Below are positions 2,489-35,147 of a stretch of 39,703 nt of DNA, piece by piece. The notes beneath the pieces were generated by a model that was given only the letters and a program-made list of their open reading frames with translations, did not search any database and was not told where the DNA came from. The stretch comes from Candidatus Nealsoniibacteriota bacterium (GTDB taxonomy: Bacteria > Patescibacteriota > Minisyncoccia > Minisyncoccales > GWA2-38-27), in the NCBI GenBank assembly GCA_030616085.1, contig JAUWYA010000005.1, positions 1 to 39,703 of the forward strand, read 5' to 3'. Position 1 is the first letter of the stretch; every line of letters begins with the position of its first letter. A program made the position numbers and the translations under genes.

Positions 2489-3082
2489 CTAATTATAGAT
2501 TTTTTTAATTTCTCCTAAAATTTGCTCTTTTAGTTTTTTATTGGTAAATGATATTGTCAGAACCCCGTATTCGCTTTTCTTTCTATAAGTTCCCTTGCCC
2601 TGCGGTGGTATGATAGTTATTTTCCCGAGTTGTTTTCTCTTAATTTCAAGGTGCTTTTTCCAAAAACTTACTGCTTTTGATTCTTTAATGTCGTTAAATA
2701 AAATTAACCCGTAGCAAAATTTCTCTTCTTTAGCTCGATATATCTTTCTTAAAAATTCTCTAAATTTTTTAATTAAAAATGGATCTGTATTCCCTAAACG
2801 AACCGATGTATTATAGGGACTTTTGTCTCCTTCTCCCCAATAAATACCAAGTCCCAATGCTTTAAGTTCACTTTCTTTTCTACTAAGCTTTGTTTTTATT
2901 TTAAATGGATCACCATTAGGATTTCGTTTTATATAAGTAGCTTCGCTTCTAGATCTTCTCGGAATATTATAATTAATCATCCAGTAAGTAACCGGATGAT
3001 AATTCCATCCTGTTTTATCAGAAATTTCTTTCATTGATAAGCCACTTCTATATAATCTTTCTAATTTATTTTTAGGTAGCAT
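2489..3082 (-). CDS. HTH + LAGLIDADG-like putative homing endonuclease
   Basis: HTH-like N-terminus (LSMKEISDKTGWNYHPVTYWM) and LAGLIDADG-like motif LKALGLGIYWGEGDKSP...RLGNTDP; start taken at MLPKNK because the longer ORF runs through tRNA-Tyr. Confidence 0.7.
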   Translation of the reverse strand: MLPKNKLERLYRSGLSMKEISDKTGWNYHPVTYWMINYNIPRRSRSEATYIKRNPNGDPFKIKTKLSRKESELKALGLGIYWGEGDKSPYNTSVRLGNTDPFLIKKFREFLRKIYRAKEEKFCYGLILFNDIKESKAVSFWKKHLEIKRKQLGKITIIPPQGKGTYRKKSEYGVLTISFTNKKLKEQILGEIKKIYN

Positions 3083-3083
3083 G

Positions 3084-3165
3084 TGGGTGCGGCAGGAATT
3101 GCACCTGCGAAGCCCTAAGGCGCCTCTTTTACAGAGAGGTGGAATAGCTACTCTCCCACGCACCC
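3084..3165 (-). tRNA. tRNA-Tyr(GTA), class II
   Basis: GGGTGCG...CGCACCC acceptor, loop CTGTAAA, 14-nt variable arm, T-loop TGCAATT. Confidence 0.95.
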
Positions 3166-34919: not shown

Positions 34920-35000
34920 ACTTCGCAAGCTTCGCTTGCTCAGTGTAAACTACTTTAGTCAATCATTCTTGTTTACCCTGAGGAGTGAAACAACGAAGGG

Positions 35001-35073
35001 TGCCGATGGCAGGGATCGAACCTACGACCTTGGCCTTATGAAGACCTCGCTCTAACCACTGAGCTACACCGGC
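35001..35073 (-). tRNA. tRNA-Met(CAT), elongator type or tRNA-Ile2
   Basis: GCCGGTG...CATCGGC acceptor, loop TTCATAA, T-loop TTCGATC. Confidence 0.9.
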
Positions 35074-35147
35074 TGGTCGCGGGGACAGGAATTGCACCTG
35101 TGTCTCGAGGTTATGGGCCTCGCAAGATACTACTTCTCCACCCCGCA
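35074..35147 (-). tRNA. Initiator-like tRNA-fMet(CAT) with encoded CCA
   Basis: TGCGGGG...CCCCGCG acceptor with non-Watson-Crick 1-72, CGAGG-CCCATAA-CCTCG anticodon arm, ACCA at 3' end. Confidence 0.88.

Follow-up and report, generated by a model that had tools for sequence, protein, structure and literature searches.

A bacterial initiator tRNA with A18 and G55 at the elbow: a putative alternative tertiary pair in Paceibacteria

Introduction

Bacterial initiator tRNAs are marked by A11-U24, usually have a C1/A72 mismatch (a weak or mismatched 1-72 pair serves formylation) and typically carry three consecutive G-C pairs in the anticodon stem, at 29-41, 30-40 and 31-39; natural exceptions exist, and the three pairs are not strictly defining. 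Ayyub is said to have described, in 2018, Mycoplasma initiators in which these G-C pairs are altered and the central pair matters most, and we know of no elbow swap in Mycoplasma initiators. The metazoan cytosolic initiator tRNAi-Met has C33 instead of U33 within a tRNA set that otherwise conserves U33 (PMC9023262). In the standard elbow, residues 57 and 58 have G18 intercalated between them, and a single hydrogen bond links G18 with a 'universally conserved' pseudouridine 55 (Psi55); in the E site this elbow is contacted by the L1 stalk of the ribosome (PMC4810234).

Here we describe an initiator tRNA gene in the window (the whole stretch of DNA that we analyzed, 39,703 nt). The host genome is a Paceibacteria (Parcubacteria) assembly of 740 kb in 35 contigs, 98.4% complete, with 37 tRNA matches; of its 16S only a 347-nt fragment, at a contig end, was seen, and the genome rRNA search returned none. 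Like the canonical fMet tRNA (e.g. that of E. coli), the tRNA has the CAU anticodon, AUAA on the 3' side of the anticodon loop, A11-U24, A73, a weak 1-72 pair, G30-C40 and G31-C39, and a formyltransferase is encoded in the genome. It differs in having C33 for U33, A29-U41 for G29-C41, A18/G55 for G18/U55, U1-G72 for C1/A72, and a 4-nt variable loop. With metazoan tRNAi-Met it shares C33 and an altered elbow in an initiator, a resemblance that we regard as convergent. In eukaryotes the elbow change is A54 (A54-A58), and the initiator works with eIF2 and lacks formylation. As in the initiators of Mycoplasma, the run of three G-C pairs is relaxed, the central pair being the most important. Compared with the standard elbow (PMC4810234), it keeps G19-C56, U54-A58, purine 57 and 15-48, whereas A and G occupy 18-55, and the genome search did not find TruB, the Psi55 synthase.

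Our preferred reading, to which we give a probability of roughly 0.8, is that the gene, present in one copy, encodes a functional bacterial initiator whose elbow would be formed by an alternative tertiary pair, A18-G55, with the initiator marks retained and with C33 and A29-U41 as independent variations. The literature that we searched, the coverage of which was incomplete and does not prove novelty, contained no earlier account of either an A18-G55 elbow or a CPR clade poor in TruB.

Results

The initiator gene is intact and single copy

ARAGORN calls a tRNA-Met(CAT) on the minus strand, and the Rfam tRNA match (gathering score 29) covers 35077-35147 of it (Table 1). The preliminary description, which gave that same span, had located the gene correctly and left it 3 nt short, since the CCA is encoded. 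Read 5' to 3', the gene is TGCGGGG TG GAGA AGTAGTA TCTT G CGAGG CCCATAA CCTCG AGAC ACAGG TGCAATT CCTGT CCCCGCG A CCA, an intact cloverleaf in all its stems, with A73, the CCA end and the CAU anticodon. The unusual bases first pointed out there (C33, A18, G55 and AGG at 29-31) are all present in the sequence; U1-G72, A11-U24 and the 4-nt variable loop are further traits that it did not mention. At the elbow, G19, C56, U54, A58, G15 and C48 provide for G19-C56, U54-A58 and the 15-48 Levitt pair, and A18 and G55 stand where G18 and U55 are canonical. Two of the three consecutive G-C pairs, 30-40 and 31-39, are G-C, and 29-41 is A-U; A11-U24 and the weak 1-72 pair, a U1-G72 wobble, are those of a bacterial initiator. 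Minimum-energy RNA folding did not recover the cloverleaf of the initiator, a result that we set aside; such folding commonly misses the cloverleaf of an unmodified tRNA.

Table 1. Coordinates of the features discussed (window positions, unless a contig of the named genome is given).
Feature	Position	Strand	Basis
Whole initiator gene, tRNA-fMet(CAU), CCA included	35074..35147	-	ARAGORN, Rfam 50.6 bits, initiator model 94.5 bits
D-loop AGTAGTA (A14 G15 U16 A18 G19 U20 A21); A18 = 35131	35128..35134	-	sequence
T-loop UGCAAUU; G55 = 35095, C56 = 35094, A58 = 35092	35090..35096	-	sequence
Anticodon loop CCCAUAA; C33 = 35116; anticodon CAU = 35113-35115	35111..35117	-	sequence
Anticodon stem 5' side CGAGG; A29 = 35120, G30 = 35119, G31 = 35118; partner strand 35106-35110 (U41 = 35108)	35118..35122	-	sequence
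Variable loop AGAC, 4 nt, without residue 47; C48 pairs with G15	35102..35105	-	sequence; 15-48 covariation in class
Acceptor 5' strand UGCGGGG; U1 opposite G72 (35078)	35141..35147	-	sequence
Elongator tRNA-Met(CAU), canonical G18/U55, D-loop AGTGGTTA, T-loop TTCGATC; directly downstream of initiator	34999..35073	-	ARAGORN
tRNA-Tyr(GUA) with A18/G55 elbow, D-loop AGTAGCTA, T-loop TGCAATT	3083..3165	-	ARAGORN, sequence
Odd second tRNA-Pro(UGG)	own genome C1:26843-26915 (L035:544-616)	-	
tRNA-like gene	own genome C28:12214-12287 (L034:515-588)	-	Rfam 44.6 bits
Locus with altered initiator 5'-half copies (L348)	G025 C11:6450-7000		
MiaB-MiaA fusion-like ORF, 626 aa	16707-18587	+	by eye
GyrB ORF with apparent intein, 1082 aa	24280-27528	-	
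Small LAGLIDADG-type endonuclease-like ORF	2489-3163	-	

We built an initiator covariance model, which we use both for scoring and for the class search below. It gives this gene 94.5 bits, the next score at the surrounding locus being 48.5 bits for the elongator Met, the other CAU tRNA, which has a standard elongator body. A DNA search of the genome with the gene returns the gene alone, and neither this search nor the model found a second initiator-grade match in the 98.4% complete assembly, a degree of completeness that leaves some chance of an unassembled second gene. The methionyl-tRNA formyltransferase gene (fmt) is present, above cut-off. That the gene is an initiator, as the preliminary description proposed, is thus borne out by A11-U24, the weak 1-72 pair, CAU, A73, the model score and fmt, and no second canonical initiator, which that description had named as a finding that could overturn it, came to light in the genome.

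Could the unusual bases be an assembly or sequencing error, or the marks of a pseudogene? The Rfam score is low: 50.6 bits, where the other tRNAs of the window above the gathering score have 63-70. A tRNA finder that is tuned to G18/U55 will give A18/G55 genes scores that are too low. Against an error or a pseudogene stand the intact stems, the encoded CCA and the position of the gene as sole initiator in a 98%-complete genome, and also the relatives, a comparison that had been suggested at the outset: the initiator exons of a same-genus genome (G001, L331), between which a group I intron sits after the anticodon, match this gene at every base, and dozens of independent MAGs keep the unusual bases. 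Sequencing error is ruled out by these identical exons and by this conservation. When about 85,000 species genomes were scanned for initiators with A18 and G55, at least 115 loci came up; among the matches listed, all are full tRNAs except two non-CPR ones (L113 and L150) that lack a cloverleaf and are due to chance, and where a title gives a lineage, it is that of a Parcubacteria-type MAG (Nealson-, Portnoy-, Staskawicz-, Giovannoni-, Gribaldo-, Wildermuth-, Kaiser-, Nomura-, Campbell-, Taylor- and Lloydbacteria). With the same bases in more than 100 independent MAGs, we give an artifact or a pseudogene practically no chance. The initiator D-loop AGTAGTA is near-invariant among relatives, and the UGCAAUU T-loop is strongly conserved within clades.

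Positions 18 and 55 switch together

To count the two elbow states free of pattern selection, we drew 209 genomes evenly from Paceibacteria, searched them with the initiator model and fetched the best matches. This class sample yielded 146 parsed initiators, five of them parsed by eye since they lack U8; intron-split and lower-scoring initiators lie outside it. A18/G55 occurs in 58 initiators and G18/U55 in 88, and mixed states occur in none (one of the 88, from G653, is elongator-like and is dropped from later counts). Across the 140 machine-parsed initiators, the normalized mutual information between 18 and 55 is 1.00, a value that helix pairs also reach (13-22 and 29-41 among them); for the established tertiary pair 15-48 it is 0.82, and no non-contact pair exceeds 0.24. 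This pattern is the signature that a direct tertiary pair switching as a unit would leave, and A18 plus G55 is, judged from this covariation, a single coupled change. Covariation shows the dependence between 18 and 55, not hydrogen-bond geometry; the geometry, folding and functional effect of an A18-G55 pair we infer. G18-Psi55 is a textbook tRNA tertiary contact, and its clean, repeated switch to A18-G55 is natural covariation evidence for that contact.

The same coupling could reflect shared ancestry alone, if A18 and G55 had each arisen once on one branch, and most families in the class sample are indeed fixed for one state. Nevertheless, both states are found inside each of six families, without mixed intermediates (a count of independent switches that is based on GTDB family labels and not on a species tree). 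Within one family, G506 and G582 have close sequences with six differing sites, both 18 and 55 among them. Beyond the class but in the same phylum, five further families have A18/G55 initiators, there with a five-base variable loop, and the coupling recurs in the unrelated isoacceptors described next. We therefore hold ancestry alone to be very unlikely. A coupled swap made repeatedly in the group, and in several tRNAs, points to a working variant and not to an error.

The swap is also found in elongator tRNAs

The tRNA-Tyr(GUA) of the window has the A18/G55 elbow too (Table 1), and with six genes in relatives it makes seven distinct A18/G55 tRNA-Tyr genes, against one near-identical gene with G18/U55 (L336). 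A18/G55 is also found in tRNA-Thr (L337) and in elongator Met (L105, L149); a third elongator Met call (L180) is less clear-cut. Neither A18/U55 nor G18/G55 occurs in any of the distinct tRNAs of the loci surveyed. A third state, G18/C55, is found in 16 distinct elongator tRNAs (Met, Asp and Thr), including this genome's own tRNA-Thr(UGU) in L008. Because this set includes pattern-selected initiators, we put weight only on the absent mixed states and on the elongators. Since the swap occurs in elongators Tyr, Met and Thr it is not initiator-specific, and we reject the elbow change as an initiator-only mark: A18-G55 is, in our reading of these genes, a putative alternative tRNA elbow pair and not a change of initiator identity.

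An odd tRNA-Pro(UGG), the second in this genome, has G55 in its T-loop, TGCGAGT; its D-loop is ATATATGTA, and it is the sole tRNA in the survey without an assignable residue 18.

C33 and the anticodon stem vary independently of the elbow

The preliminary description held that several initiator identity features are changed together. The bases are real, as we have seen; it is the single package that does not survive, given the elbow pair in elongators, a C33 unlinked to the elbow and a variable 29-41 pair. C33 occurs in 33 of 141 class initiators, in 23/85 of those with G18/U55 and 10/56 of those with A18/G55, so that no coupling with the elbow state is seen. The 29-41 pair is A-U in 84, G-C in 39 and U-A in 18 of the 141; G30-C40 is invariant (141/141), 31-39 is G-C or U-G, and all three pairs are G-C in only 21/141. 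This agrees with the published primacy of the central pair (work cited in PMC7005279). A11-U24 is A-U in 133/141, and 1-72 is almost always mismatched or weak, mostly C/A or A/A. The initiator described here keeps, by the bases present, the chief elements of bacterial initiator identity (A11-U24, a weak 1-72 pair, A73 and G30-C40), and C33 and A29-U41 appear to be tolerated variations independent of the elbow.

A different view would be that initiator identity has been rewritten, the altered elbow and C33 directing the tRNA to initiation and keeping it out of elongation, which is the role of A54/A60 in the initiators of eukaryotes. Altered T-loops and C33 are found in eukaryotic initiators as well (PMC9023262, PMC7912444), C33 is confined to the initiator among the clearly called tRNAs of this genome, and A18/G55 is much commoner in initiators (58/146) than among the other distinct tRNAs (11/365, a set that includes a targeted tRNA-Tyr search). 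Such a rewriting is nonetheless unlikely in light of the A18/G55 elongators of the same clade, the standard elbow in 88/146 class initiators and the lack of a link between C33 and elbow state.

TruB and uL1 across the class

As in the genome described here, TruB_N is missing from 155/209 class genomes and is detected in 54/209; this scarcity in Paceibacteria contrasts with the description of the enzyme's product as the most universally conserved tRNA modification. Loss of TruB as the cause or trigger of G55 can be rejected, for A18/G55 is found with and without TruB, in 21/36 of the TruB-bearing genomes. The protein uL1 belongs to the stalk that grips the elbow of the E-site tRNA. Its loss in Paceibacteria is already known (PMC12641178), and uL1 was not detected in this genome and is absent from 174/209 of the class. 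A18/G55 is found in 0/31 uL1-bearing and 58/114 uL1-lacking genomes (Fisher p about 1e-8), an association that is uncorrected for phylogeny and hence a lead only.

These numbers bear on a further explanation, in which loss of uL1, and often of TruB, weakened selection on the elbow and let 18-55 drift between near-equivalent states with immediate compensation. It draws on how widespread both absences are, on the uL1 association, on the existence of G18-C55 as a further state and on the L1 stalk sitting on the elbow of the E-site tRNA (PMC4810234). Against it, the uL1 association carries no phylogenetic correction, TruB presence does not predict G18/U55, and the strong conservation of the UGCAAUU loop within clades is unlike drift. 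We regard relaxed constraint as less likely than not, and it is compatible with the A18-G55 pair being real.

Discussion

If A18-G55 is an alternative tertiary pair, A18 would replace G18, with the intercalation between R57 and A58 presumably retained, and would contact G55 in place of U or pseudouridine 55, while G19-C56, U54-A58 and G15-C48 could still form. Both residues of the 18-55 contact would then switch together, from G18-U55 to A18-G55 or back, elongators adding G18-C55 as a further state, and the L-shape and the flat G19-C56 face would be kept without pseudouridine 55. With that face intact, the ribosome and RNase P should still recognize the elbow. Initiator function would rest on A11-U24, the weak 1-72 pair, A73, G30-C40 and CAU, together with the formyltransferase. 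C33 is plausibly tolerated because the initiator enters the P site directly, bypassing EF-Tu-dependent A-site decoding.

The A18-G55 clade suggests that an elbow can be built without Psi55, and genomes with and without uL1, and with and without TruB, offer a natural experiment on what the ribosome needs of the elbow. More broadly, and as a tentative proposal, CPR bacteria may have a second, interchangeable elbow, A18-G55, that evolved many times in initiators and elongators, is independent of Psi55 and is permitted by ribosomes lacking uL1, the elbow and the E-site stalk having co-evolved.

Introns and other loci

In four relatives (L331 in G001, L332 in G031, L345 in G016 and L346 in G048) a group I intron (Rfam RF00028, 84-90 bits) of about 190-260 nt interrupts the initiator immediately 3' of U36 in the anticodon. 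As we read it, the internal guide of the intron has a base that matches nucleotide 33: G opposite C33 in L331 and L332, A opposite U33 in L346. We considered whether such introns select for C33; with four introns only and many intronless C33 genes, this cause finds no support. In a further genome (G025, L348), two altered copies of the initiator 5' half, ending in a hairpin, lie upstream of the intact gene.

ARAGORN finds no tRNAs for Ile, Phe and Asn in the loci examined, and these may be intron-split or unassembled. A further tRNA-like gene of this genome (in L034), which has no ARAGORN call and whose loop contains TTTTGCACC, is perhaps a tRNA-Ala(UGC) with a short anticodon stem. MiaB and MiaA are the two enzymes that make ms2i6A37, and one ORF of the window resembles, by eye, a fusion of MiaB (radical SAM methylthiotransferase) and MiaA (isopentenyl transferase). 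The small LAGLIDADG endonuclease-like ORF lies between tRNA-Tyr and tRNA-Thr(GGT). In the GyrB ORF, '..GESAGG' and '..VHNSGKQGRD' flank an apparent intein that includes an endonuclease-like domain.
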